From positions 940,860 to 1,004,859 of the forward strand of contig NC_049996.1 of NCBI RefSeq assembly GCF_000003815.2: 64,000 nucleotides of DNA, in the 5' to 3' direction. Source of the DNA: Branchiostoma floridae (taxonomy: Eukaryota > Chordata > Leptocardii > Amphioxiformes > Branchiostomatidae). The notes beneath the pieces were generated by a model. That model had not been told where the DNA came from, did not search any database, and was given only the letters and a program-made list of their open reading frames with translations. Of this stretch, positions 9,513 to 61,529 are shown one piece after another. Within the stretch, counting starts at the first letter, position 1. The number at the start of each line of letters is the position of its first letter. The position numbers and the translations under genes were made by a program.

Positions 9513-10276
9513 TTAAATAGCGAAAGCTTTTGTTGCATTTTCACATCTGTACGGTCCCTCTCCAGTGTGAGTTTGCATGTGACGCTTCAGTTGACCCAGC
9601 ACACGAAACTTCTTGCAGCACTCACCGCAACTATACGGTTTCTCACCGGTGTGAGTTCTCGTGTGTTTTTTCAGGGAACCTCGCTCATTAAACTGCTTAC
9701 TGCACGTCTCGCACTTGTAAGGTTTTTCCCCTGTGTGAGTCCGCATGTGTGTCTTCAGATTAGATGACTGACTGAAGCCTTTGTTGCAATGTTCACACGT
9801 ATAAGGTTTTTCACCGGTGTGAGTCCTAATGTGTCTCTTCAGTTGACCCAACCTACTGAACTGCCTGCTGCACTCCTGACACCGGTACGGTTTCTCCCCG
9901 GTGTGGGTTCTCACGTGGCCCTTGAGATCGCCAAGATGAATAAACAGTTGCCCGCATTCATCACAGTGGTATGGTCTCTCACCAGTGTGAGTCCGTATGT
10001 GTATTTTCAGATGGCTCAACCTACCGAACTGTTTGCTGCATTCCTCACACCGGTGTGAGTTCTCATGTGGTCCTTCAAATGACCTAGCTGACTAAACCGT
10101 TTCCAACATTCACCACACTGGTATGGTCTATCACCAGTGTGAGTTGGCAGGTGTCGATTGAGCTCACTGTCAAAGTGAAACTCCTCGTCACAATAGCTGC
10201 ACTTGTGGGTACGGGGGGAATCCTGCCCGTCCTCTCCCTCCCCTTGTGTCAGATGAGATCCGGCTGCAGTCGCCAT
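9513..10276 (-). pseudogene. C2H2 zinc-finger gene 2, split by frameshifts
   Basis: It starts at the conserved MATAAGSHL. About nine C2H2 fingers can be recognised, but in two frames. The first frame (10276 to 10016) covers fingers 1 and 2 and then runs off as [15 protein letters not shown]. The second (10019 to 9513) holds the rest of finger 3 and fingers 4-8. The break lies in the linker before finger 3: the DNA goes directly from CACCGGTG to TGAGGAATGC, a loss of about 16 nt flanked by a repeated CCGGTG. A second break, one nt, falls in the last finger (TGTGAAAATGCAAC), where the frame ends in AFAI; the +1 reading restores [23 protein letters not shown] acceptor just upstream of the ATG matches the 5'-UTR intron of its paralogs. 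Probably a pseudogene; assembly error is less likely for a 16-nt loss. Confidence 0.8.
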
Positions 10277-13251: not shown

Positions 13252-13310
13252 GTTTGTAAGGTTGAAGAAATGACCAAAATACATTGAATACCAAACACGC
13301 GACGAACATC

Positions 13311-13405
13311 GCTGTGAGTTTGCATGTGCCTGCGTAGAACACTTGAGTTACGGAAGCTCCTACTACATTCTGTACACCGGTAGGTTTCTCACTGGTATCC
13401 ACATG
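13311..13405 (-). pseudogene. Relic of one C2H2 finger
   Basis: Allowing for one missing base in the linker, the minus strand reads YRCTECSRSFRNSSVLRRHM then QTHS, very close to the last finger of the third gene ([10 protein letters not shown] ... LRRHMRTH). It is an isolated finger with no gene around it. Confidence 0.7.
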
Positions 13406-17629: not shown

Positions 17630-18370
17630 TTAATCACCATGAGTTCGCATGTGCCTCCGGAGATGACTTGAGGTACGGAAGCTCCTACTGCATTCTTTAC
17701 ACTGGTAGGGTTTCTCACCGGTATGAGTCATCACATGGCTCTTCAGGTTATCAAGCCGACTAAACTGCCTGCCGCACTCCTCACATCTGTAAGGTTTCTC
17801 ACCAGTGTGAGTCCGCATATGCTTCTTCAGACTACAAATCGCACTGAACTGTTTGCTGCATTCATCGCACCTGTAGGGCTTCTCACCGGTATGTGTCCGC
17901 ATGTGTATCTTCAGACCACCCAACACACTAAACTGTTTGCTGCATTCTTCGCACTTATAGGGCTTCTCTCCGGTGTGAGTCCGCATATGACTCTTCAGAT
18001 GATGCATCCTACTAAACTGTTTTCCGCACTCCTCACATTTGAATGGTTTCTCATCAGTATGAGTCCTCATATGACTCTTCATACTGCCCTGGCCACTAAA
18101 CTGTTTGTAACACTTATCACACTTATAAGGTCTCTCACCGGTGTGGGTTCTCATATGTCTCTTCAGATTACCCAGCTGACTAAACTGTTTGCTGCACTCC
18201 TCACATCTAAACGGTTTCTCGCCAGTGTAAGAACGCATGTGTATCTTTAAATTACTCAGTCGACGAAACTCCTTGTCGCACTCGCCACACTTGTGTGTAC
18301 GCGGAAGATCCTCTTCACGTCCATTACTTCCCTTCTCTTTGCCCAGATGAGATACAGCCGGAGTCGCCAT
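17630..18370 (-). CDS. C2H2 zinc-finger protein 3 (8 fingers)
   Basis: An intact 246-residue frame starting at the family's conserved ATG (MATPAVSHL). An acidic leader of about 25 residues is followed by eight C2H2 fingers with TGEKPY/TGERPY linkers and the short end THGD. It should bind DNA in the nucleus; no effector domain is visible. Finger 1 reads HKCGEC...HMRSY, so its final zinc-binding His is Tyr; fingers 2-8 keep all four ligands. Upstream, TTCCTGCAG at about 18385 is a likely 5'-UTR acceptor, matching the paralogs. The intron behind it carries a TTAA-flanked element. Of the three copies in the window this is the best candidate for a working gene. Finger contact residues differ from those of gene 1, so its target probably differs. 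Confidence 0.9.
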
Positions 18371-18414
18371 GTTAAATAAGACACTGCAGGAATGGATATG
18401 AATCTCAACATTAA

Positions 18415-19362
18415 CCCTATTCAGACCGGGGGGGGGGCTTTTGAGGCCCGCGCTAACTTCGATGTCCTATAACGCCAGAACGGCTTACGCTAGAGCCACA
18501 AAATTTAGTGAGTTTTCCTAAAATATTGTTGGCAACAATTCTACGAAGTTTGACAAATTTTCCATTTTTTCGTGTTGCCATGGCAACCGTTTGTTCACAG
18601 GCAGTTTTGCCAAAAATCACTATTTTTGGTTCTAACAATGTATTTTTCAAATTTATTTGCTATATTACTGTGATTTTGTTACATAAACAAAATCTTATAT
18701 TATTCAGCATATCTTTCATAATTATATATGCATAAATTATGCTAATTTGATGACGTCATCAGCCCAAAATCCAAGATGGCGGACGGAATGGCCAGATCAA
18801 GAAAAACAAGCTAATTATCCCTTAAAATTTGCAACTACCTGGTATTTTTTCATCAAAAACCATCTAAATGAATGAATTTAGTCTATTTCCATTGCCCTTT
18901 GTGATTATTTGTTGCAAAAAAAGTATTTTTAAAAATTCAAGGAAGTGGATATAATATGGCGGAGCCCAACTCGTATCTTAGATGTGCATGACGTCATTTT
19001 ATGACGTCATATTGACGTAATTGATGTTGCTATTGGCAACGCAAGTCGTAATAAACATTATTATTCTGTTACCTGCACTTGTTGTTACATTTTTGTAACA
19101 TAACTTGAAGTTTTCTGAGAATACCCATTTTTCATGGGTTTGGCCAATATAATCAAATTGATGACGTCATAATTACGTCATCTTACCTCAACGTACCGTC
19201 AAACGTCACATACTTGTCAGATATTATGTCGAAATCATGTCCTGAAAATTTGGTGGCCCTACGGCACGTCGTTTTAGAGTTATAGGACTTAGAAGTGGAG
19301 GGCCTCAAAAGCCACCCCCCCCCCGGTCCAGGGATGACCAAAAAAGCCCGGTCTGAATAGGG
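18415..19362. mobile_element. TTAA-flanked inverted-repeat element (piggyBac-like MITE)
   Basis: The element starts CCCTATTCAGACCGGG and ends CCCGGTCTGAATAGGG, with TTAA on both sides, the target site of piggyBac-type transposons. It is 948 bp long, AT-rich inside (GTTGCCATGGCAAC, several TGACGTCAT) and has no transposase. The paralogous position near 5820 lacks it. Relatives lie at 26625, 27479, 29692, 45840 and 55070. Confidence 0.8.
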
Positions 19363-24969: not shown

Positions 24970-25064
24970 CTAAGCGAACATGTCATAATAAGCCAATACA
25001 ATGTGAGTCAGAATCATCGAGGCCAGAACACCAACACCAATAGTAGCAGAGGTTGCCTTCGAGT
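24970..25064 (-). CDS. Mosaic gene exon 16: membrane tail and stop
   Basis: After the acceptor TTATTCACAG (phase 1) it reads DSKATSATIGVGVLASMILT, then HIVLAYYDMFA and TAG. The small residues SKATSA before the hydrophobic run fit a GPI attachment site; a plain C-terminal membrane span is the alternative. Confidence 0.78.
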
Positions 25065-28000
25065 CTGTGAATAACAAAGGTATACGTATACTATGAATAT
25101 TCGAACAAAAGATATGTAGAAATTAGTTAATAAATAGAATTAAGTACAAACGTATTGCAAAAAATGATGATACAATTACTTGTATGCCTTGAGCATTTTT
25201 TTCTATTGCAATAGCTTAAATCATATATTTTACTTGAGGTAAAAATAAGATATGAATACAATAGAAGTATGAATACGCTCTGCATAACTGATGCACCAAG
25301 TAAGCACGACTGTATAAAGGTATATCATAGCATGGAGGTAAAACAGGACATAGGGACATTGCTCTGGTAACGTAAAGGTGGTCTGTGTTCTTACCGTCAT
25401 AAGCTGTACCACGGGGAGCCATAGTGGCCTCAGGTGGTCCTGTGGTCGCCATTCCGCCAGGTGGCATAGTGATGTCAGGCTGCCCTTCTGTGGTTAGACC
25501 ACCAGGGGGCATCGTGATGTCAGGCGTCCCTTCGGTTGTCGAACCGCCAGGAGGCACCGTGATGTCAGGCTGCCCTTCCGTGGCCATTCCGACAGGAGGC
25601 ATCGTGATGTCAGGCTGCCCTTCTGTGGTCAGACCACCAGGGGGCATCGTGATGCCAGGCTGCCCTTCGGTGGTCAGAACGCTAGGAGGCATCGTGATGT
25701 CAGGCTGCCCTTCGGTGGTCGGACCGCCAGGAGGCATCGTGATGTCAGGCTGCCCTTCGGTGGTCATACCGCCAGGAGGCATCGTGATGTCAGGCTGCCC
25801 TTTGGTGGTCAGACCGCCAGGAGGCGTGACTATGTCAGCCTGTCCTTCGGTGGTAGGTTTTATGTCGCCATGGCCTTCGAAGGTGGTCTGAGCATCAGTC
25901 ACAGTCTCTGATGTGGTTCCTGCAGCAACACCCAATTACAATATAAACGCTTGTGTAGTTTTTGTCTTTTTTAACGACGTTACCCGAACTCTTAGGTCTA
26001 GCAGATGGCATGAAACATTGAAAGTAACGTATTTAAACAGTGCCGCATACAGAGAGAATGTAAAGGTTGTCTTTTACCTCCCCGACCAAAGTAAGGTATC
26101 CATTTCTAAACATCGGTGAAGTGAAGAAGGTCGTGTAAGGCACGACGGGTTTCAAACTCGGGACCTCTAGATTCCGAGCCAAACACGCTACCAGTTACGC
26201 CACAAACGACACGATACCCGTACATGATCCTCAAGTTAAGACCCATCATCCCTAACTTCCACCTACCCATAATCGTCGTTCTTATAAATAAAATTTTGAA
26301 AACGTAATCATGATTGAGACAGAAATTTACCGCAGACAACACCGTCCGCTTCGTCTTCAAAATGCGGACAGTCGCCGTTGATTTCTTACACCGCAAAAAT
26401 GTAGCAATGCACTGCCCGTTTAAACAGCCTTTAAATAGCCTTTACTGTCAGCGCACACAAAACTCCTGGATGTAAATGTAATAGTACCAGCCATTATAGA
26501 TTCAAACTTTGTAGACACGTCACAATACTCTAAAGTACACATTCTATGGGTAGACTGTTCAAAAAACAACGTTACAAATAAATGTTGCAAAAACACGTTA
26601 TTGACGAATATAATAAAGCGTCATTAATTGATTTTTTTGTCTAAAACGGGGAATTCACAAAATACCTAAATATCTCACTCAAAAAGTTACCAATAAAGGT
26701 TTCTTATTAATATCTAAGTGTTATAAGACTTCTGTTGTCAAAAGCCGACGCAACGATGTTATAGAATGACGTCATCTGTAGTTTAGCTATCCGCCATCTT
26801 GGATTATCAACCTTACATTTTTAAAGATACATTTTTTTCAACATATAACGCTAAAATCCCATGGAAATGGATTAATAACGATCACATGAATGTTTTCTGT
26901 AAGAAAATACCAAGTAGTGATGAAATCTGAGGGAAAATAAGCTTGTAAAACTTGATATTGTCGGACATCTTGGATTTTGACCAATTACGTCATCTCATTA
27001 GCATAATTTATGAATATTTTATTATAAATGTTCAACTTATATGTGTTAGATGTTAAAGTTATATGAAAAGAAGTTAAGTTTAGCAAGAAAATCTTAAAAT
27101 CCCATTGATTAAACCAAAATTATTGATTTTTGGAAAATTTGCATTTCAGAAACCCGTTGCCATGGCAACACTAAAAATAATAAACTTACGCATTTTTTTA
27201 AATTGTTGCCAACAATATTTTAGGAAAACTCACCAAGTTTGGTTGTTCTAGCTCAAGCCGTTTGGGAGCTATAGGAGGTCAAAGTTGCCACGGGCACTTT
27301 TAGCCCCTACCCCCTACCCCTAGTCTGGATAGGGTTAATTAACTTCTGACAACCTTTGCATGTAATGTACTAGCCATTNNNNNNNNNNNNNNNNNNNNNN
27401 NNNNNNNNNNNNNNNNNNNNNNNNNNNNNNNNNNNNNNNNNNNNNNNNNNNNNNNNNNNNNNNNNNNNNNNNNNNNNNTTAATTGATTTTTTTGTCTAAA
27501 ACGCGGGAATTCACAAAATACCTCAATATCTCACTCAAAAAGTTACCAATAAAGGTTTCTTATTAATATCTAAGTGTTATAAGACTTCTGTTGTCAAAAG
27601 CCGACGCAACGATGTTATAGAATGACGTCATCTGTAGTTTAGCTATCCGCCATCTTGGATTATCAACCTTACATTTTTAAAGATACATTTTTTTTCAACA
27701 TATAACGCTAAAATCCCATGGAAATGGATTAATAACGATCACATTAATGTTTTCTGTAAGAAAATACCAAGTAGTGATGAAATCTGAGGGAAAATAAGCT
27801 TGTAAAACTTGATATTGTCGGACATCTTGGATTTTGACCAATTACGTCATCTCATTAGCATAATTTATGAATATTTTATTATAAATGTTCAACTTATATG
27901 TGTTAGATGTTAAAGTTATATGAAAAGAAGTTAAGTTTAGCAAGAAAATCTTAAAATCCCATTGATTAAACCAAAATTATTGATTTTTGGAAAATTTGCA

Positions 28001-31000
28001 TTTCAGAAACCCGTTGCCATGGCAACACTAAAAATAATAAACTTACGCATTTTTTTAAATTGTTGCCAACAATATTTTAGGAAAACTCACCAAGTTTGGT
28101 TGTTCTAGCTAAAGCCGTTTGGGAGCTATAGGAGGTCAAAGTTGCCACGGGCACTTTTAGCCCCTACCCCCTACCCCTAGTCTGGATAGGGTTAATTAAC
28201 TTCTGACAACCTTTGCATGTAATGTACTAGCCATTATAGTTTCAGACCTTAAAGGCACGTCACAATACTCCACAAAAGCATTCTATGGGAACAAGACTGT
28301 TGCAGAAGCACGTTATTGGCGACTATAATAAAGCTCATGTGATCGCTGTTATAAAACACCTCACCTATGGCTATGGCTGCATAGTTCAACTGGAAACCCT
28401 GAGCAGTCTCAATATCATCAGATGTAAACCTCACGAACATCTGGTTAGATGTGCTGGCAACGGGGTCGACTGACACTTCCCCTGTTAAGCTGGAAATCAA
28501 AATAAGTCTTTCTTCGGTCAAACAAAAATGTTATGTTTCATGTTTCAGTCTTAACAAGTTGTTGTTAGGTTGACATTCTCCTATTTAGTTAGATTTTTTA
28601 TGTTTGGGCACAGCCAAGGTGATTCAACAAGTACGGTTTAGAAATACAAACGGAAAATGCGTAAGAAACTGGTGTTTTTAACTCGTATGGGAAATGTCAT
28701 TGATGTAAATTGTAGAAGCAGATGTATGTCATTGATAAGCTGAACGAAAAGTACGATGTTTACTACACATTCTTATATCACTTTTTCTTTTTACTGAACT
28801 CTTAACAGAGTGTGTTTGCTTTGAATTTCACCACCAAGATTTCTAAGCGAAACTTTATCCCTACCGACCCAAAAAAAATTGGCTAGGGCGTAGTTTTTTT
28901 TTTCATAGGGTCGGTCCAGTAACTAAACACGCAACAATTTCTTTAGGAATTGCCTTAAAGTTTGCTACCCACAAAATAGTAGAGCTCTGAAAGCTGAAAC
29001 TAGCAATTTACACCAGAACCGACTCTCTACATCATACAAACTTCCAAAATCAGTTTGACTGTTTAGGCCATCACCTCTGCAATTCTGGAGCATCATCACT
29101 GCCCCCATCGTAGATGGTCAAAAAGTCATAACCGTCCTCAAGCTGGAAGCTTCTAAATTTGAGAAGAACCATGCTTCCTTCTGCCACAGTGATTGTCCAC
29201 TCACAGGTCGCATCGTTGTTGTAGTTGTCGGGGTAGTTCGGTGATGTCACAGTACCTCCAGGTGGAGCCGTCAGGATACCTCCACATCCGGGAGCACTGG
29301 TTGTTGCAGCTGTGTCTTAAGAGAAGACAAAATGACATCAACTGACTTTACTGTAGTCTAATGATTGGATCCGTCAAAACGTAGACACGACTTTTGTTGC
29401 ATAAGACCTTGGTCCATATGTTGAAAAGATGTAAGGTTCCAATTATCTATATTCATCTATTGCTAAAACTAACTTATACATATTCATATATTCAAAAGGC
29501 TTGACCATTGAAAAAAGGTTATCGTGGCATTTCCTAATAGATAATGCAAAAGAAAGCCTTAGATATGTTAATATTTACCCTATTAACATATCTTCATTAG
29601 TTCATTTATTGCTGCCAGTGTTTTATGATAATTTTGTCATTTGTTCTGCAAATAAGTTTCTCATTAACTAGCCAATATCTAGGACTGTTAACCCTATCCA
29701 GACTGGGGGGGGGGGGGGGCTAAAATTGCTCCCAAACAGCTTGTGCTAAAACAACCAAACTTGGTGAGTTTTCCTAAAATATTGTTGGCAACGGTGTTTT
29801 AAAAAAATTGCCTAAGTTTATGATTCTTAGTGTCGCCATGGCAACGGGTTTCTGAAAGGCAAATTTTCCAAAAATCACTAGTTTTGGTTTAAACAATGGG
29901 ATTTTAATATTTTCTTGCTAAACAAAACTTATTTTCATATATCTTTAATATCTAATACATCTTAGTTGAACATTTATAATTAAATATTCATAAATTATGC
30001 TAATGAGATGACGTAATTGGGCAAATGTAAGATGGCCGACAATATCATGATTTAAAGTATAACAAACTTATTTTCATTCCAATTTCATCACTACTTGGTA
30101 TTTTCTCACAGAAAACATTCAGGTGAACGTTTTCAATCAATTTTCAAGGGGTTTAAGCGTTATCTGTAGTTTAGGTATTCCCCGTTTTAGATAAAAATAT
30201 CAATTAATGACGTCATAAATACGTCATATTACGTCATAGTGATATAAAAATTTCAGGAATTATAAAACTCGATAAGCACAACCCTCCCCGCAAATTTGTT
30301 GATCATACAGTAAGCTGTTTTGAAATACCCAAGGGGGGGGGGGGTCGAATGAGNNNNNNNNNNNNNNNNNNNNNNNNNNNNNNNNNNNNNNNNNNNNNNN
30401 NNNNNNNNNNNNNNNNNNNNNNNNNNNNNNNNNNNNNNNNNNNNNNNNNNNNNTATATTCCCACATTACGCACAGGCTAGATGCCATGTAATTATCATGC
30501 ACAACATTATTCCAAAAGAAGGGGAATGCCGTATAGATTTGAGAAGCAATGTAAAATATATGTATGTTTTTTCCTAAAGCCGTAGATAGCAGCTCACCCC
30601 CACAGTCCGCCTCGTCCTCTCCTTGCGAACAGTCGAGGTAATATTCATCGCACCAATAGTCTGCAGGGATGCACGAACCGTCCAAACACTGCCGTTCACT
30701 CTCCTGGCAGCCCCCAGCTTAGGAAAAGACCAAAAGATTAGTATGAGAAAAGTGAGTTCCACGATCTCATACCTTTGTTATTTTTTCTTTACCTTTACGA
30801 ACGATTTTCTTGTGTGTTTTGCATTAATATTATATATATATATGTCCTTTTTCTATAAAATGTATATGTTAACCATATCGATCTTCATCCCAAATGACAG
30901 TTTTGTGTTTCTCATAAAAATTCATTCGCATCATTAATCATTTCATGATAGTCAAACAATGAAAAACTGTCTTTTGCGTTTTTAAACAGAATATTATGTG

Positions 31001-34000
31001 GCGAAAAACAGATAAGCATTTTTTACTGATCTTTTCATTTGAGAACAACTTTTTAAAAGATCTTACACTACACACCACTATTACCCGTGATCCTATTCGA
31101 CGTATATCTAAACAGTACTGTTTGAATATAATAATAATGATATTGGTAATAATATAAATCACGAGGATGGGACTATGTAAGGTAAGGTAATCATCTGTAA
31201 AGTCGTAGATAACAGCTTATAATTACCCAAACATTCCGCCTCGTCCTCTCCCTGTGAACAGTCGGTATACTGTCCATCGCACCAATAGTCTGCAGGTATG
31301 CACGAACCGTCCAAACACTGGCGTTCACTCTCCTGGCAGCTCCCAGCTTGGGAAAAGAGCAAAAGATTATTTTGAAAAAATTTGAAAATGAGTTCCACGA
31401 TCTCATACCTTCGTTATTTTTTCTTGATCTTTACGAACGATTTTCTTGTGTGTTTTGCATTAATAATTATATTTCCTTGTTTGCATAAAATATATAAGTA
31501 AACCATCTCGATCTTTATCCCAAATGACAGAAGCAGACAATCTTATCATAACAAAGAATGCAATGTTTTGGTGATGAGTAGCTGGTTGATCATCTATATG
31601 ATGATAACGTTAAGCGGATTCGGCTATTCATGTGGTGGTTATAGCAATCGGCAGCCCCCAGCCTAGGAAATTTAATTCTCTACACACAAAGAATTCAAAC
31701 TATCCTTTGCTTGTTCAAGCATGCTAAGACCGATCCGTTAAAAGTGATACCTGGCAAAAGTCAAACAAACGTGTACCTGCATAGAAACTAATCTGCTTCT
31801 CACATTGTATATTAACTTACACAGTGTGCAGTAATTTATTTCATAAATTAATGCCGTTTGCCCAATAATCACTAGTTTACATCGCTACCTCTATTTCTCA
31901 AAACAAGTAAGTTGTAGTTGGTTGCTCACGTGCACCCCCACAGTCCGACTCGTCGTCTCCATACCAACAGTGGATATAACCATCACACCAATTGTCTTCT
32001 GGAATGCACAAGCCGTCCAAACACCGGCGTACGCAGCCTCCAGCTTGAAAAGGGATGACAAAGGAAGATGGACATGAGAAACAATTTCAAATTGAACTGC
32101 TATGGTGGTGATATTAAATTTGTTATAAGGATATTTCATGGATTATTCTCTTATTGGTTTTCATTTCATCTTCTCCTTGCGGATAGCTGTTTTAAACATT
32201 ACACCGATAGTCCTCAGCGAAACACGAACCGTCCCAACACTGAAGCTCACTCTTTGAGCCGGGGCTCTAGCCAGCTCGAATTTTTTTTTCCATCAGCCAA
32301 TTCCCATTGTCGCGAAAACCGCGACAATTAAGTTAGAAAGACGGAACTGAGACCTTGAAAAACGAGTTTTTAATGAGATTATCGTATGCGACAGGGCGCC
32401 GACTTACTAAGTCAACAATCATAACAATAGCAAGACAAACAGTGTGTGGCTTTCCGACCGTGGACAGCGTCCACAAGCCGCCTGTAGCTTCCACAAAGAA
32501 TTTTTGTCCGTCAAGGTGGACGGATTGGTTTTAAAAATTTTCCGTCACACGCAGCAAATTTCCGTCAATTGACGTAAAAAACGGACGCTGGCTAGAGCCC
32601 TGCTTTGAGCAGTCCTCAGCTTGGGAAAACGAAAGTTGGCAGTCTGAGATGAAAACATTCTAAATAATCTACTTTCATGGCAACCTACAAATGGTTATTG
32701 GGATGTAACATTAGTTACATTAGAGTTAGAATGAATACAGTAAGGGGGAGGGGGGCGATGTCTATCTACGAAAAAAAAAAAATTTCTTTCGATCTCTCAC
32801 TGACGGAGCCAGGAGTCACAGTTTCTCTCACCCCTGGTCTGTCGGTTATATGTTTTTCGGGGCCATAGTGGCTGATTGAGCGTTTGCCTTTGACATTTTG
32901 CACTGTACCTTTTCGGGTACCCAGCACACTATATCCGTTACACAGCCAAAAATGCCTTTTCTTGTTTATCTTGTCTTGCTTCCTCACAGAAAATTTATGT
33001 TCCGTGATGAAAATTATTCTGTCCCAAAGAAATCTTAGAAAAATGTGCTTGTCCTTGTAAAGTTTATGAGACGATTTGAGATTCGTTTTCTTTCACTGCT
33101 AAAATGCTTTTCTTGTTCGTCTTGATTTGCTTCCTCCATGGAGAAAATTACTGATGCGAGAATGTAAGTCATGTCATATTCGGAGGAAGAAAAAAATAAT
33201 GTATTTCTTATGAGCTGAATCTTGTTACAAAAAAAGCAAGAATTACTAGAAATGTTTTTCTTGCATCATAAGAAAAAATGTAGAAGATTTTGCTTAAATC
33301 CCCCCATAAAATTGTAGTTTCTTGTTTTGCTTGAAATTCATTCTACATTTTCTTCCTGCAATTATATTTTTCTTCATATAATAATTTTCCATGAGGTAAG
33401 CAAAACAAGAAAAATCATTGTTAGTAGTGTGTGTGCGATAAAGGCTTTTATGCCTACTAATGCAGGCCTGCTCATTGAATGGTGTCAATAAATGTCACCG
33501 CCCTCTTTAGATTTACAGGTTCAGACCTTACCGAAACATGCTGGCACGTCACAATAACCCCATTGTTGGTCCGGATCCATAGTGAAGCACCAAACGCCAT
33601 AAGGGTCTCCATCCGGATTCCGGCAGTAGTTCTGCTCCAGTCCGGATGCCGGATAATTAGCGGCTGTGACGCCGTGTTGGTGCGGTGTCTGACTGTCCCA
33701 ATGCTGACACGTCCTGCCTGTTTCCGTCATAGAGATATTTCCTCGGTAAGATGTCCCATTGCCTGTCAGGCAGTCTAAGGGTAGATGAAAGGCAAGGTCT
33801 ATTACGCATATCGTTTTAGCAATTAGTAATAGGTAATGTCTTTATGAAAATTGCATGTGGATCCCTTAAAACCTTGCTCGTTTTCAAAATTATCCACAAG
33901 GTCTGAGGAATTATGCCCACTTTTTGAAGAAAAAAAAAACATATTAGATCAAGCTTGACCTAATGATGACCTTAAACTTTTGGAATGATTAAGCGAAGAC

Positions 34001-37000
34001 ATCTTTTGTTTGATATATAGAAAATGGAGAACAAGGGTTCTAATATCTATTTTGGAGCTTGAATAATTTTCCGGATATTAGTTCAATCTCATAATTTCCT
34101 TCATGCAATAAAGTAGTTTGCATAGTATTACAAGCGTCCAAATGGTAAGTATAAACTATTGCCAGTTGTCAAATTTAAACATAAAGCAAACATTTGACGG
34201 AAACAATAAAGAATATCAGAATGAAGTATCATATTTTTAACTTGATAGTCCATACAGCTGCATGTCCGAAGTCAATATTTAGATTTTCCTTGAAAGCAGG
34301 AAAAAGTTGTGGATTATTTTAGGAGGAAAAAGAATTTTGTTTATTTCGAATCCTAAACCTTGTAAACAGTTCGGATGTCTTTATAGGTAAATAGAAAGCC
34401 AGATTATTAAATCCAATGACAATCCAATGCGATTTTTTCCACGCCTACCCTTTGTTCTACCCCCCCTTCTTATATTGTACACGCTTGTACATTTGAAAAG
34501 TTGCCCTTGAACGTATCTTTGAAGAGATATATACTACTTTATCTACTATTTCTCTTTGGGAAGAGTTAGTATGAATTGACCTATCTGAAATCCTCGCCAA
34601 ACCCAACGCACCTGCTGCCATTCCTAAAAAGCTCACTTCGACTAACCAAGGCTGTTGGTTTTCCGGGCCAGTTGCCGTGATAAGCAGTCGCCAGAATCGA
34701 CTCGTGGCACTGAAGCCGCCAAGTGCTAAATCCACAGGCATGTTATAAGGGGATTCAATCACGTGAATCCAGTCATAAGGATCCGAACTGGCTGATATTT
34801 GAAACTCAAATGCCGTACAGTCGTGGGTTATGTCTCCGTAGTTGGTGATGCGGATCGCGGAGAGAGTATGAGCTACCAACAAGTCAAAGATGATGTACCA
34901 TGGGCCGGGACTGATCGGGTTCCAGAAAGTACCAACATCACCGTCGAGAACTTTATCTGGGCCAGATGTATCAGGTGATAATGTTGGTGTAGCGTCGATA
35001 GCCCAAGCAGGGGAGCTCTCCATCCACCCTGGTAATTGGGAAATTGAATGGACAAAATTGGTCGATGTAAGTTAGACATCCAGGCATTAAGGTACGCCAA
35101 AAAGTAGTGACTTTAGCAACTGGATATGGTTTTGGTCAAGGAACTGGATATGGTTTTGGTCAAGGAACTGGATATGGTTTTGGTCAAGGAATTGGATATG
35201 GTTTTTGTCAAGCAACTGGATATGGTTTTGGTCAAGGAAGTGGATATGGTTTTGGTCAAGGAACTTGATATGATTTTGGTCAAGCAACTGGATATGGTTT
35301 TGGTCAAGCAACTGTATATGATTTTGGTCAAGCAACTGGATATGGTTTTGGTCAAGCAACTGGATATAATTTTGTCAAGCAACTGAACATGGTTTTGTCA
35401 AGCAACTGAATAATATTATGGTTTTGGTCAAACAACTGGATATTATTTTGTCAAGCAACTGAATATGGTTTTGTCAAGCAACTGAATAATATTATGGTTT
35501 TGGTCAAGCAACTGGATATGGTTTTGGTCAATCAACTGGATATGGTTTTGGTCAAGCAACTGGACATGGTTTAGGTCAAGCAACTGGGTATGTTTTGTCA
35601 AGCAACTGGATATGGTTTTGGTCAAAGAACTGGATATGGTTTTGTCAAGCAACTGGATATAGTTTTGGTCAAGTAACTGGATATGGTTTTGGTCAAGTAA
35701 CTGCATATGGTTTTGGTCAAGTAACTGGATATGGTTTGGGTCAAGCAACTGGATATGGTTTTGGTCAAGGAACTGGATATGGTTTTGGTCAAGCAACTGG
35801 ATATGGTTTTGTCAAGCAACTGGATATGGTTTTGGTCAAGGAACTGGATATGGTTTTGTCAAGCAACTGGATATAGTTTTGGTCAAGTAACTGGATATGG
35901 TTTTGGTCAAGTAACTGCATATGGTTTTGGTCAAGTAACTGGATATGGTTTTGGTCAAGCAACTGGAAATGGTTTTGGTCAAGCAACTGGATATGATTTT
36001 GTCAAGCAACTGAATATGGTTTTGGTCAAACAACTGGAAATGGTTTTGGTCAAGCAACTGGATATGGTTTTGTAAAGCAACTGGATATGGTTTTGGTCAA
36101 GTAACTGGATATGGTTTTGGTCAAGCAACTGGATATGGTTTTGGTCAAGCAACTGAATATGGTTCTGTCAAGCAACTGAATAATATTATGGTTTTGGTCA
36201 AGCAACTGGATATGGTTTTGATCAAGCAACTGGATATGGTTTTGGTCAAGCAACTGGATATGATTTTGTCAAGCAACTGAATATGGTTTTGTCAAGCAAC
36301 TGAATAATATTATGGTTTTGGTCAAGCAACTGAATAATATTATGGTTTTGGTCAAGCAACTGGATATGGTTTTGGTCAAGCAACTGGATATGGTTTTGGT
36401 CAAGGAACTGGATATGGTTTTGGTCAAGGAATTGGATATGGTTTTTGTCAAGCAACTGGATATGGTTTTGGTCAAGGAAGTGGATATGGTTTTGGTCAAG
36501 GAACTTGATATGATTTTGGTCAAGCAACTGGATATGGTTTTGGTCAAGCAACTGTATATGATTTTGGTCAAGCAACTGGATATGGTTTTGGTCAAGCAAC
36601 TGGATATAATTTTGTCAAGCAACTGAACATGGTTTTGTCAAGCAACTGAATAATATTATGGTTTTGGTCAAACAACTGGATATTATTTTGTCAAGCAACT
36701 GAATATGGTTTTGTCAAGCAACTGAATAATATTATGGTTTTGGTCAAGCAACTGGATATGGTTTTGGTCAATCAACTGGATATGGTTTTGGTCAAGCAAC
36801 TGGACATGGTTTAGGTCAAGCAACTGGGTATGGTTTTGGTCAAGCAACTGGATATGATTTTGGTCAAGCAACTGGATATGGTTTTGGTCAAGCCACTGGA
36901 TATGATTTTGGTCAAGCAACTGGATATGGTTTTGGTCAAGCCACTGGATATGATTTTGGTCAAGCAACTGGATATGGTTTTGGTCAAGCAACTGGATATG

Positions 37001-40000
37001 GTTTTGGAAACGATAAGACGTTTCAACTGTATAGACCCTCTCCAACAAGATCTCTTCAGTGTCACTGACAAAAACTACGGGATATCAGTTGAAATGTCTG
37101 ACCGTTTTCAGAACCATATCTAGTGGCTTTAGTAACTACTTTTTGGCGCAATGGACAAAAATAGGTACTCATTAGTTGTATAAAAAAGAGTTAAGACTCG
37201 TGTAAATTAATGTAAATGTCTAAATATTGGCTCGATTATGGAAATATAATTGAAATTCTTTCTTCAGTTATTCTCCACAGAAGATTTTGGCAAAGCTAGC
37301 AGAGTCTGATTCGTCCTCTCCTCGCGGACAGTCACCATAAGCATCACACCCATAGTCTTTATGGAAGAATCAACCGTTTAAGCACTGAATTTCATCCTTA
37401 TAACAAACCTCGCACTGGCCTTAAAAATACGACGATACGCATGAGAACTATACAAAAAGTAACTTCGACTGTGATCTAGAATTTGGTACTGGTCTATATT
37501 TCAGAACGCGATATCTATTTTACAAACTGATAAGACGTAGAATTGCTGCTTACACGGGCAGTCCGACTCGTCCTCTCCTTGTGAACAGTCATCAGAACCA
37601 TCACACCAATAGAATTCAATGATGCACGAACCGTCGAAACACTGGTGAGCACTCTCCTGGCAGCCCACAGCTTTTAAAAAAGATCGAAAGGAAGATAGGC
37701 ATGAGAAATTCCACAATTTCATACCTTCGCTAATTCATCGTAGCATTCACGACTGATTTATTTTGCGTGTTCTGAAGTAATTAGGCATAAGGTCCTAGTT
37801 TACATAAACTATATGAGTAAACCATCTCCGCTGCTCAAATTACAGAAACAGATAGTCTTATTGTCCTATTGTTGTTACGGTAGTTGTTTGCTCACCCCCA
37901 CAGTCCGACTCGTCCTCTCCTTGTGAACAGCTAGAATAACCATTACACCAATAGTGTTCAGAGATGCACCAACCGTCCAAACACTGCCGTTCACTCTCCT
38001 GGCAGCCTACAGCTTTTGAAAAAAAAATCAAAAGTTAGCTAGATAGGCACGATACATTTCATACCCTCTACAATTTCATACGACTGATTTATTTTGTGTG
38101 TTTTGGATTGATTATACAAATACAGTCCTGTATAGAAATTGCTGAACTTTCTTTCCAACACTGAATTAACATACTTAGGGACTTACCCTGAATTATCGGT
38201 CAAACTCCGTCAACCTTGTTCCCAGAATGACCCTCTCTATCTCCAGCAGTGACGCCAGGAACACGCCACTATTGCAGGAGGGGGTCATAAGTATCAGAAA
38301 CTCTATGTCGCCCCCCGTCTCTGTTGAGTGTGGGCCGGTAAGCTCGAATGTACACTGCCTTCTTCACTCCTCGCGCGAAGAAATCCTGTTCTGGGTCTAG
38401 TATTTTCTGATACTTATGACCCCCTCCTGCAAAAGTGGTGTGTTCCTGACATCACTGCTGGGGATAGAGAGGGTCTTTCTGTGAAAAGGGTTTGCCGGAG
38501 TTTGACTGAAAATTTAGGGTAAGTCCTTATATTAATTCAGTGTTGGAAAGAAATTTTAGCAATTTCTATAATGTATTGTACCAACACAGTTGAACTTTCA
38601 TAAAGTCCTGGTTTACAAAAACTACTAAGTAAACCATCTCCACCGCCCAAATGACAGAAGCAGACAGTTTTATTGTCCGTAGTTGTTTGCTCACCTTCAC
38701 AGTCCGACTCGTCCTCTCCTTGCAAGCAATCATTATACTGACCATCACACCAATAGTGTTCAGGGATGCACCAACCGTTCAAACACTGGCGGTCACTCTC
38801 CTGGCAGCTCCCAGCTTGTGATGGGATGAACAAGGAAGATTAGCAAGAGAAAAAATTGCAAAAATAAACTGCCTTCCCTAACCTTAAAATTTTCCAATAC
38901 CAAATCTATCAAGATTTGGTATTGGAAAATTTTATTCCATTGATTGTATAGCATTTCAATTCAGTACAACAATTCAAAACGCGATGTTTATCATATACAA
39001 TCAGTACCTAAGAGACACTAGTACTTACCCCCACAGATTGACTCATCCTCTCCTTGGAGACAGTTCACCTCCCCATCACACCAATAGTTATCAGGAATGC
39101 ACGAACCGTTCAAGCACTGGAATTCATCCTCATAACAAACCTCGCGTTCACCATGGCCTTGCAAAAAACGAAGATTAACATGAGAACTAAACGTAAAAAT
39201 AATTTGATGGTGATCTGAAATTTGGTACTAAAATATAGCACTTTTATATTTCAGTGTGCGATATCTATTTTACAAACTAGTAAGACGTTGCATGGCTGCT
39301 ACCCGCTACTATGCGCATTTTCAGTAAATGTCTTGGGGGTAAGTGGGGTAAGGAGCGCTCCCGGTGCAGGCCATATGGGCACGATAGGCCGGGCACGAGG
39401 GGCCGGGCACGAGGGGCCGGGCACGAGGGGCCGGGCACGGGGGGCTCGGCACGAGCGGCCGGCGGTACCATGATACGTGTGTGGGGGCATTTCTTCACTG
39501 GGAAAAACGATTTTTTAATCATTTTTTTATGTTTTCTATCGCTAGAGCACCCCTTCTGTGATTCTCAATAATTAGTTTTTAACAAATGAGCTTAATTACT
39601 CAAAAGACACCCCTTAGGCATGAAAGAGTCTACGGTCACAAGAGGCCAAAACTATGGACTTTCTCCCAACTGATTAACAAAATTTTCAGTCAATTTCTAA
39701 AATGCAATACACATGTTTTCTATCACAAGAACACCCATTCTGTGATTCTGAATCATAAGCTTTTAACAAATGGGCTTAATTACTATGAAGAGATCCCATA
39801 GGCATAGGTATCAAAGAGTCTACAGTCACGACAGGTTTAAACTACAGGCTTTTTTTCTCCTTACGGAGAAATCAATTTTTTATCATGTTTTCTATCAATA
39901 GAGCAAGCATTTTGTGATTCTCAATTATCAGTTCATAACAAATTAACTTAATTATCCAAAAGAGACACGGTCCCCTAGCCTAAGGGTCAAAGAGACTACG

Positions 40001-42312
40001 GTCATGATAGGCTGAAACTATGTGCTTCTTGCAAACTGTGAGAAACAAATTTTCAATCAATTTTCTAAAATTGATTGAAAATTTGTTTTTCCCAGATAGG
40101 AAAGGCCCCCCACACGTATAATGGTACAGTCGGCCCCTTGTCCCCAGCCCCTCGTACCCGGCCTATCGTGCCCGAATTGCTGGCACCGGGAGCGCTCCTT
40201 ACCCAAATGCTTATGCCTACTAATGCTGCTCAAAGAATATAACTACAGGTTTACAGGTTCAGACCTTACCGGAGCATGTTGGCACGTCACAATAATCCCA
40301 TGGCCGTTCCGAATCCGTGGTGATGCACCAAACTCCGGAAGGGTCTCCATCCGGATTCCGGCAGTAGTTCTGCTCCAGTCCGGATGCCGGATAATTAGCG
40401 GGTGTGACGCCGTGTTCGTGCGGTGTCTGACTGTCCCAGTGTTGACACGTCTTGCCTGTTCTCGTCACAGAGATTGTTCCTCGGTAAGATGCTCCATTCC
40501 CTATCTGGCAGTCTAAGGGCAGATACAAGAGGTTAGAAATATTACTTTCCTTTGTTTACTAGACCATTAGGCTTATTGTGAGCCACTTTAATGCTATGGG
40601 TTACATTAATTACACTATGATGGCAGATGTCCTCTTCCCTTAGTCTTGAAAGGTTTTAAGTTATACACTGACTTACTTTATGCATGGCATCTTCTGGAGA
40701 CCTCAAAACTAATGCTCGAATGCAAAAAAAGGAAAATGCAAGAAAAAACGCTGCTAAATCAGAGGACTAAACATGTAGTCCATACTTTCGAATACTTGGT
40801 CTATGTCATGTTTACCTCTAGTAAGACTATGTAATCGTCGGTATTTCAAATATGTTTTGTTGTCATTCTTGTTTATATAAGGGGAACATGGGCGCCGTGG
40901 CTCCATGCCCTGACCATGTGCCCCCATATCCCGGAGAGCAGAGCGTAAAATTTTGATTGACCAAGGTTGCCCTTGGGTAACCTGTGACCACTGTTCTAAC
41001 TATTCTGAAATGAATGCCATGCCATCCATTGAATTAAGTCAGTGTGGCCTTAGGGAAGGCATCACGAGAGGCTTGTTACACAAGGATTAAGTCTAAGAAA
41101 TGACAAGCAAAGGAGCTAAAATGTAAAGGCAATATTTAATTTGTCTCATCGGGCTCTTGTAACAATGCAGGAAGGCAAATTGACATTGATTCTTCCCGAT
41201 GAGATACAAACTACACAACGTTATCATTTTCCCAGCTCCTAAATCTCATTAACTCCAAAGGGTCAGAAGCTTACCGCTGACGGTTCAATTTTGATGAAAC
41301 GCAAAGACTGTGCAGGGGGATGAAAAATCTATATGTTTTATCGAATTTGATTCAAGAAATAATGTTTTGTTGTATTTACTGGTCAATATTGTTGACTGGT
41401 TCGGGTATGTCAGATACAAAGTCGGGTATGCCGGTGGTTGACTTGGTTCTAACGGTGAATGGGTTGGATCTGCTGGTGGTTGGGTCGGGTCTGCTGGTGG
41501 TTGGGTCGGGTCTGCTGGGGGTTGGGTCAGGTCTGCTGGTGGTTTGGTCGGGTCTGCCGGTGGTTTGGTCGGGTCTGCTGGTGGTTTGGTCGGGTCTGCT
41601 GGTGGTTTGGTCGGGTCTGCTGGTGGTTGAGTTGGGTCTGCTGGAGGGTGGGTCGGGTCTGCCGGTGGTTGGGTCGGGTCTGCCGGTGGTTGAGTTGGGT
41701 CTGCTGGAGGTTGGTTCGGGTCTGCCGGTGGTTGGGTCGGGTCTGCCGGTGGTTGGGTCGGTTCTGCCGGTGGTTGGGTCGGGTCTGCTGGTGGTTGGGT
41801 CGGGTCTGCCGGTAGTTGGGTCGGGTCTGCTGGTGGTTGGGTCGGGTCTGCCGGTGGTTGGGTCGGGTCTGCCGGTGGTTGGGTCGGGTCTGCTGGTGGT
41901 TTGGTCGGGTCTGCCGGTGGTTGGGTCGGATCTGCTGGTGGTTGGGTCGGGTCTGCCGGTGCTTGGGTCGGGTCTGCTGGTGCTTGGGTCGGGTCCCCCG
42001 GTGACAGAGTTGGGTTTGTAGGTAGGTTGGTCTGGTATTCCGATGGCTTGGTTGGATGTGCCGGTGGCTCTGTCGGGTCTGCCAACAACAAAAGACACAT
42101 TTTCTGTCGAGATTCGTCTTTCATGTTTTCAACTTCTCCGTTAAAATGGATGAGTAAAAGTATTCGAAACACATCATGTAGATACTGCCTTAAAAACACC
42201 ATCTTTTTGTACCTGTAGGTGTAAGGGATGGGTCCGCTTTCACCACATAGACGGCTATAACGGTTGCCACCAGACTGATGGCCCATTGTCCAAAGCGACG
42301 TTTGGTGTCCAT
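24970..42312 (-). CDS. Mosaic kringle/LDLa/F5-8C/CUB membrane glycoprotein gene (16 exons)
   Basis: Sixteen minus-strand exons join in frame to 3519 nt, about 1172 residues. Order: signal peptide (1-26), Thr/Pro mucin repeat (34-266), kringle (267-347), four LDLa (348-508), F5/8C (509-647), kringle (648-728), three LDLa (729-844), CUB (845-966), second mucin-like repeat (967-1141), hydrophobic tail (1142-1172). Splice sites are GT/AG throughout. Every boundary is phase 1 except the one inside the CUB domain (phase 2), the classic signature of exon-shuffled extracellular proteins. The tail ends YYDMFA after about 20 hydrophobic residues, fitting a GPI signal or a single membrane span with almost no cytoplasmic part. 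Kringle, LDLa, F5/8C and CUB domains usually bind proteins, lipoproteins, carbohydrates or lipids; which applies here cannot be told. I do not recognise this architecture as a named protein. A missed exon, for instance in a gap, is possible. Confidence 0.82.
25395..25919 (-). CDS. Mosaic gene exon 15: second mucin-like repeat
   Basis: A 175-codon phase 1-1 exon with about ten copies of a 15-residue unit of the type PPGGLTTEGQPDITM (45 bp), after GTTSETVTDAQTTFEGHGD. Rich in Thr, Pro and Gly: likely an O-glycosylated stalk lifting the binding modules from the membrane. Acceptor GTTGCTGCAG, donor GACG|GTAAGA. Confidence 0.82.
26110..26218 (-). repeat. tRNA-derived SINE (intron 14)
   Basis: The minus strand has the A box TGGCGTAACTGGTAGCGTG and, about 30 nt later, the B box GGTCCCGAGTTTGAAACCC, a good RNA polymerase III promoter pair. 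No tRNA fold is complete. The SINE body continues toward 26105. Confidence 0.6.
26325..26440 (-). pseudogene. Dead LDLa exon (intron 14)
   Basis: The minus strand reads CLNGQCIATFLRCKK and, one frame on, NGDCPHFEDEADGVVCG followed by a usable GTAAAT donor. A one-nt shift in AAATCAACGG and an upstream stop kill it. It differs from the other LDLa copies, so it is an older or separate module. Confidence 0.6.
26625..27334. mobile_element. TTAA element, 5'-truncated, reversed (intron 14)
   Basis: It ends TCTGGATAGGG followed by TTAA (27335-27338). The inner landmarks GTTGCCATGGCAACAC and TTTATGAATATTTTAT match the family in reverse orientation; the other end stops at CATTAATTGAT, so it is truncated. 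Confidence 0.75.
27479..28191. repeat. TTAA element copy, near-duplicate of 26625-27334
   Basis: It repeats 26625-27334 with only a handful of differences, up to TTAA at 28192, and even the following 45 bp (CTTCTGACAACCTTTGCATG) match. The 100-N gap lies between the copies. Confidence 0.85.
28365..28489 (-). CDS. Mosaic gene exon 14: CUB domain, second part
   Basis: A phase 2-1 exon, acceptor ATTTCCAG: LTGEVSVDPVASTSNQMFVR, then FTSDD and GFQLNYAAIA. The last strand pattern (MFVRFTSD...GFQLNY) is the usual C-terminal half of a CUB domain. It is the only exon boundary in the gene that is not phase 1-1, as expected for a split inside a domain. Confidence 0.87.
29075..29315 (-). CDS. Mosaic gene exon 13: CUB domain, first part
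   Basis: It starts phase 1 after CTTAAG and ends phase 2 at AGAG|GTGATG. It reads CGGILTAPPGGTVTSPNYPD, then CEWTI, then the typical YDFLTIYDGG. One Cys pair (CGG and CEW) is present; the second CUB disulfide is missing. The Glu/Asp around LEDGYDFL resemble calcium-binding CUB domains. Confidence 0.88.
29692..30353. mobile_element. TTAA element, left part (intron 12)
   Basis: After TTAA (29688-29691) it begins CCCTATCCAGACTGGG with a G run and continues with the family's inner landmarks (CACCAAACTTGGTGAG-like sequence, GTCGCCATGGCAACGGG, repeated GACGTCAT). Its right end falls in the gap at 30354-30453. Confidence 0.75.
30598..30717 (-). CDS. Mosaic gene exon 12: LDLa 7
   Basis: A 40-codon phase 1-1 exon: AGGCQESERQCLDGSCIPAD, then YWCDEYYLDC, then GEDEADC. 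Very close to exon 11, as is the intron around it, indicating a recent tandem duplication. Donor GGGG|GTGAGC. Confidence 0.86.
31227..31346 (-). CDS. Mosaic gene exon 11: LDLa 6
   Basis: A 40-codon phase 1-1 exon: AGSCQESERQCLDGSCIPAD, then YWCDGQYTDC, then GEDEAEC. Complete Cys set and acidic cage. Donor TTGG|GTAATT. Confidence 0.86.
31655..31676 (-). pseudogene. Fragment of an LDLa exon start
   Basis: TTTCCTAGGCTGGGGGCTGCC matches the acceptor and first codons (AGGC) of the LDLa exons exactly, then similarity ends. A truncated module. Confidence 0.55.
31936..32043 (-). CDS. Mosaic gene exon 10: LDLa 5 (shortened)
   Basis: A phase 1-1 exon of 36 codons: AGGCVRRCLDGLCIPED, then NWCDGYIHC, then GDDESDCG. 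Cys 1 and 2 are only two residues apart (three codons shorter than sisters), and His replaces a calcium-binding Asp. Two donors are possible, GGGG|GTGCAC or, six nt later, GCAC|GTGAGC; both keep phase. Folding may be compromised. Confidence 0.7.
32163..32632 (-). pseudogene. Dead LDLa exon split by a transposon (intron 9)
   Basis: With the 343-bp insertion and one copy of its target repeat left out of the reading, the exon begins after an intact CCCAAG acceptor as AEDCSKSELQCWDGSCFAED, then YRCNV and a stop. The remaining part (YPQGEDE) keeps the acidic motif but not the last Cys. The module was broken by a stop and by the insertion. Confidence 0.75.
32260..32602. mobile_element. hAT-like MITE (343 bp) inside a dead LDLa exon
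   Basis: The 8-bp direct repeat CTTTGAGC flanks it (32252-32259 and 32603-32610). The ends are inverted: CGGGGCTCTAGCCAGC at the left, and the right end complements to CAGGGCTCTAGCCAGC. No coding capacity. Confidence 0.85.
33532..33774 (-). CDS. Mosaic gene exon 9: kringle domain 2
   Basis: The same 81-codon length and phase as exon 3, with all six Cys (DCLTGNG, RTCQHW, NYCRNPDGD, VWCFT, GYCDVP, PAC). Intron sequence beyond the donor is also shared with exon 3 (TTTACAGGTTCAGACCTTACC and TTATGCCTACTAATGC on the plus strand), so the duplication covered exon plus flank. Confidence 0.88.
34612..35028 (-). CDS. Mosaic gene exon 8: F5/8 type C (discoidin-like) domain
   Basis: One 139-codon phase 1-1 exon. 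Recognisable elements are KVLDGDVGTFWNP, WYIIFDL, LSAIRITNYGD, FEFQISASSD, WIHVIES and RFWRLLITAT to PWLVEVSFLG, the order of a galactose-binding-like F5/8C fold. The usual terminal disulfide Cys pair is missing; only HDC is present. Such domains bind sugars, phospholipids or proteins. Confidence 0.8.
35090..37150. repeat. 24-bp minisatellite, about 1.9 kb, with inverted ends
   Basis: Roughly 80 copies of ATGGTTTTGGTCAAGCAACTGG-type units fill intron 7. Higher-order structure is visible: the block from about 35133 to 35560 reappears at about 36384 to 36810, and another block at 35640-35730 repeats at 35860-35960. Left edge GCCAAAAAGTAGTGACTTTA and right edge (inverted) GCCAAAAAGTAGTTACTAAA are terminal inverted repeats, so the array seems to have grown inside a MITE. 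Open frames across it are artefacts of the 24-bp period. Confidence 0.9.
37300..37419 (-). pseudogene. Dead LDLa exon (intron 7)
   Basis: Close relative of exon 4: after an intact acceptor (TTTTTAAG) it reads CEVCYKDEIQCLNG, then a stop codon, then KDYGCDAYGDCPRGEDESDS. The final Cys is Ser and the donor is gone. The flanking intron is also duplicated (37440-37540 against 39200-39300), so exon and flank were copied together and then lost function. Confidence 0.8.
37554..37670 (-). CDS. Mosaic gene exon 7: LDLa 4
   Basis: A 39-codon phase 1-1 exon: AVGCQESAHQCFDGSCIIEF, then YWCDGSDDC, then GEDESDCP. Six Cys and the full acidic cage are present. The donor used is CCGT|GTAAGC, slightly shifted from its paralogs, which use GGG|GTGAGC. 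Confidence 0.83.
37896..38012 (-). CDS. Mosaic gene exon 6: LDLa 3
   Basis: A 39-codon phase 1-1 exon: AVGCQESERQCLDGWCISEH, then YWCNGYSSC, then GEDESDC. Six Cys are present, but CNG and SSC replace CDG and xDC, so two calcium ligands are missing. Confidence 0.85.
38131..38570. repeat. Long inverted repeat in intron 5
   Basis: Arms of about 170 nt (38131-38300 and 38404-38570) are inverted with few mismatches; shared landmarks are CTTTCCAACACTGAATTAA, GACCCTCTCTATC and GCAGGAGGGGGTCATAAG. The spacer is about 100 nt. A foldback transposon or a cruciform-forming palindrome between LDLa exons. Confidence 0.85.
38695..38814 (-). CDS. Mosaic gene exon 5: LDLa 2
   Basis: A 40-codon phase 1-1 exon: AGSCQESDRQCLNGWCIPEH, then YWCDGQYNDC, then GEDESDC. 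All six Cys and the acidic calcium cage (CDG, NDC, EDE) are intact. Acceptor CATCACAAG, donor GAAG|GTGAGC. Confidence 0.87.
39029..39157 (-). CDS. Mosaic gene exon 4: LDLa 1
   Basis: A 43-codon phase 1-1 exon: GHGEREVCYEDEFQCLNGSC, then IPDNYWCDGEVNC, then GEDESIC. Six Cys are present. The second calcium ligand position is Asn (EVNC) instead of Asp. Donor GGG|GTAAGT. Confidence 0.85.
39345..40204. mobile_element. Inverted-ended element with three internal repeats, intron 3
   Basis: GGGTAAGGAGCGCTCCCGG at the left end is inverted at the right end (CCGGGAGCGCTCCTTACCC). A 14-bp GGGCCGGGCACGAG tandem follows the left end. Inside are three diverged units of about 180 bp (each with GTTTTCTATC, TGTGATTCT and AAAGAG.CTACGGTCA). 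No transposase. Target duplication unclear (AAATGTCTT against AAATGCTTA). Confidence 0.65.
40270..40512 (-). CDS. Mosaic gene exon 3: kringle domain 1
   Basis: An 81-codon phase 1-1 exon containing a full kringle with six Cys: DCQIGNG, KTCQHW, NYCRNPDGD, VWCIT, DYCDVP, PTC. The acidic pair in NPDGD is where lysine-binding kringles hold their ligand, but the cationic side is unclear. About 77% identical to kringle 2 by eye. Confidence 0.88.
41380..42078 (-). CDS. Mosaic gene exon 2: Thr/Pro mucin-like repeat
   Basis: The acceptor TTGTTGGCAG leads into DPTEPPAHPT. About 26 copies of a seven-residue unit PTQPPAD (21 bp) follow, with K/H/N variants, then LYLTYPNQSTILT to the donor CCA|GTAAAT, phase 1. 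Such a stretch should be heavily O-glycosylated and extended, forming a stalk between the N-terminus and the first kringle. The 21-bp tandem DNA is prone to length change. Confidence 0.8.
42213..42312 (-). CDS. Mosaic gene exon 1: signal peptide
   Basis: ATG opens MDTKRRFGQW, followed by a hydrophobic core AISLVATVIAVYVV and a likely cleavage after VVKA, then DPSLTP. Donor CTACAG|GTACAA, phase 1. The sequence before the ATG (CTTCTCTACAATAG) could be a 5'-UTR acceptor, so the promoter may lie further up. Confidence 0.8.
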
Positions 42313-61515: not shown

Positions 61516-61529
61516 CATTGACAACATAT

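Follow-up and report, generated by a model that had tools for sequence, protein, structure and literature searches.

In the lancelet Branchiostoma floridae, a gene on the minus strand of a 64,000-nt stretch of DNA (C18:940860-1004859, hereafter the window), read from position 42312 down to 24970, joins 16 exons into one 3525-nt CDS encoding 1174 amino acids and a stop codon. Its anatomy is established here, as are the recurrence of its module order and splice sites across several loci and the constraint on its protein sequence. We give a probability of roughly 60% to the reading that the 16 exons form a real gene belonging to a multigene family of lancelets, whose products would be membrane-tethered extracellular mosaics made from class 1-1 exons and serving as surface receptors of the adhesion or scavenger type.

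Gene structure and coding evidence

The module order runs from a signal peptide and a P/T repeat through a kringle, four LDLa modules, an F5/8C module, a second kringle, three further LDLa modules and a CUB module spread over two exons to a T/P repeat and a hydrophobic tail (Table 1). All 15 introns have GT/AG borders and 14 of them are in phase 1, the exception being a phase 2 intron within the CUB module; phase 1 introns thus flank the module exons, as in class 1-1 exon-shuffled mosaics, apart from this CUB-internal border. Exon 10 could also end 6 nt earlier, at a second in-phase donor. An earlier note on this DNA had proposed a complete gene at 24970-42312, and its coordinates, module count, intron borders and open frame were all borne out. 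It was mistaken in placing mucin stalks between two binding clusters: the first mucin-like exon directly follows the signal peptide and the second immediately precedes the tail, so that exons 2 and 15 stand at the two ends, and it is the F5/8C module that lies between the clusters.

Table 1. Exons and exon relics of the window gene (window positions) and the six paralogous loci compared with it.
Feature	Position	Strand	Evidence or remark
Exon 1: start codon and signal peptide (MDTKRRFGQWAISLVATVIAVYVVKA)	42213..42312	-	also in 4 other loci
Exon 2: P/T-rich 7-residue repeat (DPTQPPA), 21-nt tandem repeat	41380..42078	-	frame from synonymous variation
Exon 3: kringle 1	40270..40512	-	gene model, Pfam, alignment
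Exon 4: LDLa 1	39029..39157	-	gene model, Pfam
Exon 5: LDLa 2	38695..38814	-	gene model, Pfam
Exon 6: LDLa 3	37896..38012	-	gene model, Pfam
Exon 7: LDLa 4	37554..37670	-	gene model, Pfam
Relic LDLa exon, LDLa 1-like	about 37304..37420	-	in-frame stop; outside reading frame
Exon 8: F5/8 type C (discoidin/CBM32-like) module	34612..35028	-	gene model, Pfam, sequence relatives
Exon 9: kringle 2	33532..33774	-	gene model, Pfam
Relic LDLa exon	about 32159..32263	-	in-frame stop
Exon 10: LDLa 5, six Cys, shortened C1-C2 spacing	31930..32043	-	gene model
Exon 11: LDLa 6	31227..31346	-	gene model, Pfam
Exon 12: LDLa 7	30598..30717	-	gene model, Pfam
Exon 13: CUB, first part	29075..29315	-	gene model, Pfam
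Exon 14: CUB, second part, phase 2 intron ahead	28365..28489	-	gene model, Pfam
Exon 15: T/P-rich 15-residue repeat (TTEGQPDITMPPGGL), stalk	25395..25919	-	gene model, repeat-frame analysis
Exon 16: hydrophobic C-terminus and stop (ATSATIGVGVLASMILTHIVLAYYDMFA)	24970..25064	-	gene model, hydropathy
P1	C8:1.57-1.60 Mb		all 16 exons, window arrangement
P2			no signal peptide exon, 4.1-kb N run at 5' end; no LDLa 6-to-tail exon within stretch read
P3	C8:0.32-0.345 Mb		all 16 exons, window arrangement
P4	C8:0.49-0.52 Mb		three kringles, different kringle/LDLa number
P5	C1:26.88-26.90 Mb		additional kringle after F5/8C
P6	C18:1.412-1.444 Mb		14,208 of 32,039 bases outside stretch read

In the repeat of exon 2, two frames are fully open and the third is open over most of its length; openness is therefore not decisive, and the frame needs proof from the substitution pattern. 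Among the 27 of 33 units that fit the consensus and entered the count, the 43 changes divide into 27 synonymous and 16 nonsynonymous in the frame of the gene; read in the other two frames, they divide into 6/37 and 2/41. The repeat of exon 15 (9 of 11 units) gives 17/18 in the gene frame against 10/25 and 8/27.

Two assembly gaps (27379-27478 and 30354-30453) are both intronic, and the idea of exons hidden inside them was dropped, since a near-identical copy of the region on C8 has no extra module of the kinds present in this gene at either site. Around a 100-N gap, a 757-bp direct repeat (99.3%; 26624-28235) looks like an unmerged contig overlap, because the C8 copy has a single unit. The intron between LDLa 4 and the F5/8C module contains about 78 copies of a 24-bp tandem repeat (35115-37007), and the intronic segment 38131-38570, which aligns with itself in reverse complement over 456 bp at 77%, is perhaps a palindromic mobile element. 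Elsewhere in the window, C2H2 zinc-finger reading frames lie near the gene on the minus strand (5053-5871, 9516-10091, 13143-13388 and 17633-18466), and a reverse transcriptase fragment (PF00078) occupies 61492-62247, also on the minus strand.

Modules, binding sites and C-terminus

A Pfam scan of the joined protein, with a reporting threshold of E<=0.001, found five families. Kringle (1e-50, two stretches), LDLa (2e-37), CUB (3e-26) and F5/8C (2e-7) all exceed their curated cut-offs, which confirms the module types read earlier by eye. Six LDLa stretches pass individually, against seven modules; LDLa 5 gave no Pfam match when scanned alone. Protease, 7TM and YWTD families are absent from the five, trypsin, SRCR, PAN, WSC, EGF, MAM and LCCL gave no Pfam match at the same threshold, and the joined protein showed neither an enzyme nor a signalling part.

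Coagulation-type F5/8C modules carry a terminal pair of disulfide-forming Cys. The F5/8C exon scores above the Pfam cut-off but contains one Cys, and therefore does not have this pair; among solved structures it is nearest in sequence to AlyQ (E 8.5e-5) and to a CBM32 domain. A single-sequence AlphaFold model of this exon was poor (mean pLDDT 50.7) and was discarded.

Calcium and lysine sites are unevenly preserved across modules and copies. The E...D...D pattern, which we take to mark calcium-binding CUBs, is preserved in the CUB module, and LDLa 4 carries what is presumably the full LDLa acidic set, whose residues are missing from LDLa 1, 3 and 5. Compared with plasminogen kringle 4, kringle 1 of the window (by alignment) and kringle 2 (by visual comparison) have each retained the two Asp and two Trp that we take as site residues; DGD is replaced by DGG, presumably at the same site, in kringle 2 of P2 and of P3 and in kringle 3 of P4. 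Strong lysine binding by the window kringles was dropped as a candidate property, since these differ from plasminogen kringle 4 at the basic positions and one Asp is missing from other copies.

GPI signals consist of a small-residue omega site followed by a hydrophobic C-terminus without a basic stop. The window protein is hydrophobic almost to its end, ATIGVGVLASMILTHIVLA being followed by YYDMFA and the stop, so that about 6 residues lie past the hydrophobic stretch; VLAYYDMFA plus stop is common to the tails of the window gene, P1, P3 and P4, and the P5 tail reads differently. By eye and hydropathy, the terminus resembles this pattern. With neither Lys nor Arg past its hydrophobic part and with a cytoplasmic domain lacking, it suits either GPI anchoring or attachment by a very short membrane tail. 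Of the 'membrane tail' named in the earlier note, the hydrophobic C-terminal stretch thus stands; a cytoplasmic portion is absent, and a GPI signal fits equally well.

A family of paralogous loci

The earlier note had treated the gene as one of a kind, whereas several paralogues occur in the same genome (513,431,437 bases in 431 contigs searched). At least 150 kringle exons, out of 528 candidates, lie above the Pfam cut-off. When the joined protein with shortened repeats was used as query, the best 50 of 2082 candidates were scored and gave 56 matches, counts that are lower bounds, and related loci were found on C8, C1 and C18 among the matches listed. Most of the F5/8C exon recurs in at least nine places besides its own: four on C8 (93, 90, 89 and 81% identity), one each on C1 and at C18:1.41 Mb (72% each), and on C7, C11 and C16 (51-55%).

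We examined seven loci, the window and the six paralogous loci P1-P6. The exons from signal peptide to tail are recognizable, in the same order, in five of the seven (the window, P1, P3, P4 and P5); in these five, the ends and the F5/8C module are constant and the number of kringle and LDLa modules varies. P4, with exons 71-95% identical to those of the window, allows an open reading of 1235 residues, ATG through stop, that includes three kringles and has the order K-L-K-4L-F5/8C-K-3L-CUB (K, kringle; L, LDLa) once two LDLa-like stretches without usable sites are omitted; the LDLa preceding its F5/8C module has a weak acceptor. Since the script that built this model took only in-phase GT/AG sites, the open frame, and not the sites, is the independent evidence.

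The proposal that the gene arose partly by duplication of a kringle-plus-LDLa block holds up on several counts. The exons of kringles 1 and 2 match over 278 bp at 88%, splice sites included, and matches between LDLa exons run into the adjoining introns (340 bp between LDLa 6 and 7, 320 bp between 4 and 6, and 200 bp between 2 and 5). In the kringle tree, the kringle 1-type copies of the window, P1, P2, P3 and P4 cluster (0.93), and their kringle 2-type copies form a separate group (0.92). Because the two types group apart, the tree shows the kringle 1/kringle 2 duplication as older than the window gene and P1-P4, and thus as predating most of the copies compared. The first and third kringles of P5 pair with each other (0.88), which a simple history does not explain. 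P4 itself carries two successive blocks of a kringle, an LDLa and an LDLa 1-type module, the middle LDLa being relic-like. Exons of phase 1-1 can be lost singly with the frame preserved, and two LDLa relics with in-frame stops do sit in the window introns; at the places corresponding to these relics, LDLa-like sequence (matches only) is found in P1 and P2, and one such match in P3.

The segmental copy on C8

Between about 19.5 k and 57.0 k, the window matches C8:1561688-1598607 in inverted orientation, with large insertions. Towards its ends the segment is 82-93% identical, its middle outside tandem repeats mostly reaches 94-100%, and across about 10 kb (24.6-34.5 k) the 300-base pieces, N-rich ones left out, are 98-100% identical. 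Between 42.3 k and 36.9 k, 13 of 18 pieces are nearer to P3 than to P1, and we read this mosaic of identities as probable exchange between loci.

A different account of the same pattern is that the assembly split one locus between two chromosomes, placing one haplotype in the window and the other at C8:1.58 Mb. The identity of 96-100% across much of 37 kb would suit it, as would the 10-kb stretch just described. However, homology falls off at both ends and then stops, at about 19.5 k and 57.0 k with C8 sequence compared on both sides, the sole remaining match being a collinear one of 218 bp (77%) in a zinc-finger exon, and C8 bears three further copies. Misplacement of a haplotype is therefore rather unlikely, and it would in any case be compatible with a real gene of a multigene family.

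Constraint and decay

Over six between-copy comparisons, dN/dS lies between 0.23 and 0.36, with repeat exons left out and with YN00 yielding a smaller dS than NG86; amino-acid changes between copies are rarer than expected. Between the window gene and P3, 40, 28 and 66 differences fall at codon positions 1, 2 and 3 of 751 codons (dN 0.044, dS 0.135, ratio 0.32 by NG86), and the NG86 ratios are 0.32 against P1 (752 codons) and 0.36 against P2 (490 codons). A rough per-module test that takes variable sites as independent shows, in the four closest copies, constraint on kringle 2 (p=1.8e-5) and on F5/8C (p=3.3e-4); CUBa is weakly constrained among three copies (p=0.08, or 0.006 once P4 is added). 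For kringle 1, the same four copies give no sign of constraint (N 10, S 3, ratio 1.00, p=1), and a ratio of 0.48 (p=0.034) when P4, which has two such kringles, is added; positive selection on this module was considered and is unsupported at a ratio of 1.00. Kringles 1 and 2 of the window gene, set against each other, have a ratio of 0.59 under NG86, and the two other methods give larger values.

Splice dinucleotides are intact at every aligned boundary in P1 (16 exons) and P2 (8 exons aligned). In P3, the acceptor of the second mucin-like exon is lost; the donor of the first, misplaced by the aligner, actually reads GTAAAT. Because this lost acceptor is joined by a stop in LDLa 5 of P1 and an apparent frameshift in the P5 tail, some copies of the family may be decaying. 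The window gene could likewise be a decaying pseudogene with working members elsewhere, for example on C8: relic LDLa exons are present, related copies carry the defects just listed, the segment closely copies C8 sequence, and kringle 1 is without constraint among close copies. We regard this as unlikely, since the window copy is fully open with every splice site intact and kringle 2 and F5/8C are under constraint, albeit as an average over copies.

Relation to known proteins and probable function

Several known proteins share parts of this composition. Members of the LDL receptor family combine LDLa repeats with an EGF/YWTD propeller and an NPxY tail; the window protein has LDLa repeats in common with them, but neither EGF nor YWTD modules (E<=0.001) nor a cytoplasmic tail. 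Neuropilins and DCBLD proteins have an N-terminal CUB module and F5/8C, together with MAM or LCCL; the combination of CUB and F5/8C is shared, whereas the window CUB is C-terminal, MAM and LCCL are lacking at E<=0.001 and there is no cytoplasmic tail. Adhesion GPCRs are marked by the 7tm_2 domain, for which the joined protein has no match at E<=0.001; its final exon, of 31 residues, ends in a stop, and the last nine residues recur in P1, P3 and P4. According to the accessible part of one report (PMC2246102), in B. floridae there are GPCRs of the adhesion class that carry kringle, LDLa, CUB or discoidin modules, surface proteins with the same module types as the window protein, which unlike them has no seven-helix domain. 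Lancelet plasminogen-activator-like proteins (SRCR, kringle, LDLRA, PAN and trypsin, as given in the part of PMC6337849 available) likewise place kringle and LDLa in one protein, but the window protein has no trypsin-like (E<=0.001), SRCR or PAN domain and instead has F5/8C, CUB, repeats and a membrane tail. Kremen (kringle, WSC and CUB, from the available part of PMC3927612) unites kringle and CUB in one membrane protein, as here; the window protein differs in having no WSC (E<=0.001) and in its seven LDLa modules, two kringles and F5/8C. No account of the full module order of the window protein, for which the earlier note had likewise known no named precedent, was found in the open-access literature searched by titles and the beginnings of abstracts, a corpus outside which most subscription papers lie.

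The simplest reading of the module content is a surface-tethered binding protein, and its function is most likely that of a membrane-tethered adhesion or scavenger-type receptor. We propose that the ends of the protein would be fixed, with the signal peptide and P/T repeat at one side and the CUB module, T/P stalk and hydrophobic tail at the other, and that the interior set of kringle and LDLa modules would expand and contract through duplication and decay of phase 1-1 exons with the frame preserved. A GPI anchor or very short membrane tail would tether the protein at the outer cell surface, where the T/P stalk may raise the two LDLa/kringle clusters, the CBM32-like F5/8C module and the CUB module above the membrane. 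The modules may bind protein and glycan ligands, partly via calcium, and the protein would then act in adhesion or as a scavenger-type receptor without a signalling tail or enzyme. A bolder version, an 'accordion' receptor in which fixed ends enclose a kringle/LDLa repertoire continually altered by 1-1 exon duplication, decay and interchromosomal exchange, possibly for immune or self/non-self recognition, seems to us quite improbable as stated.

Huang et al. (PMC4284660) state, in the portion available, that rearrangement of coding exons is far commoner in lancelets than in other animals and has a bias toward 1-1 exons; Banyai and Patthy (PMC4967905), in the portion available, hold much of the claimed lancelet innovation to be gene-prediction error. 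That the window gene is such an artefact, with modules of two adjacent genes joined by eye, is very improbable: although the latter authors describe a lancelet domain fusion refuted by ESTs and consider architecture differences probably prediction errors, five loci share the order with signal-peptide and tail exons at their ends, a window-wide tblastn search found a single exon of each of these two kinds, the phase 1 chain is unbroken, and P4, for all its divergence, also opens end to end. The multigene-family reading describes a new architecture that was formed by a mode already described for lancelets. Because the order is repeated at several loci, splice sites are kept, the protein sequence is constrained, relic exons are present and module numbers vary, the family offers a test case for the dispute over lancelet domain shuffling that is independent of annotation.
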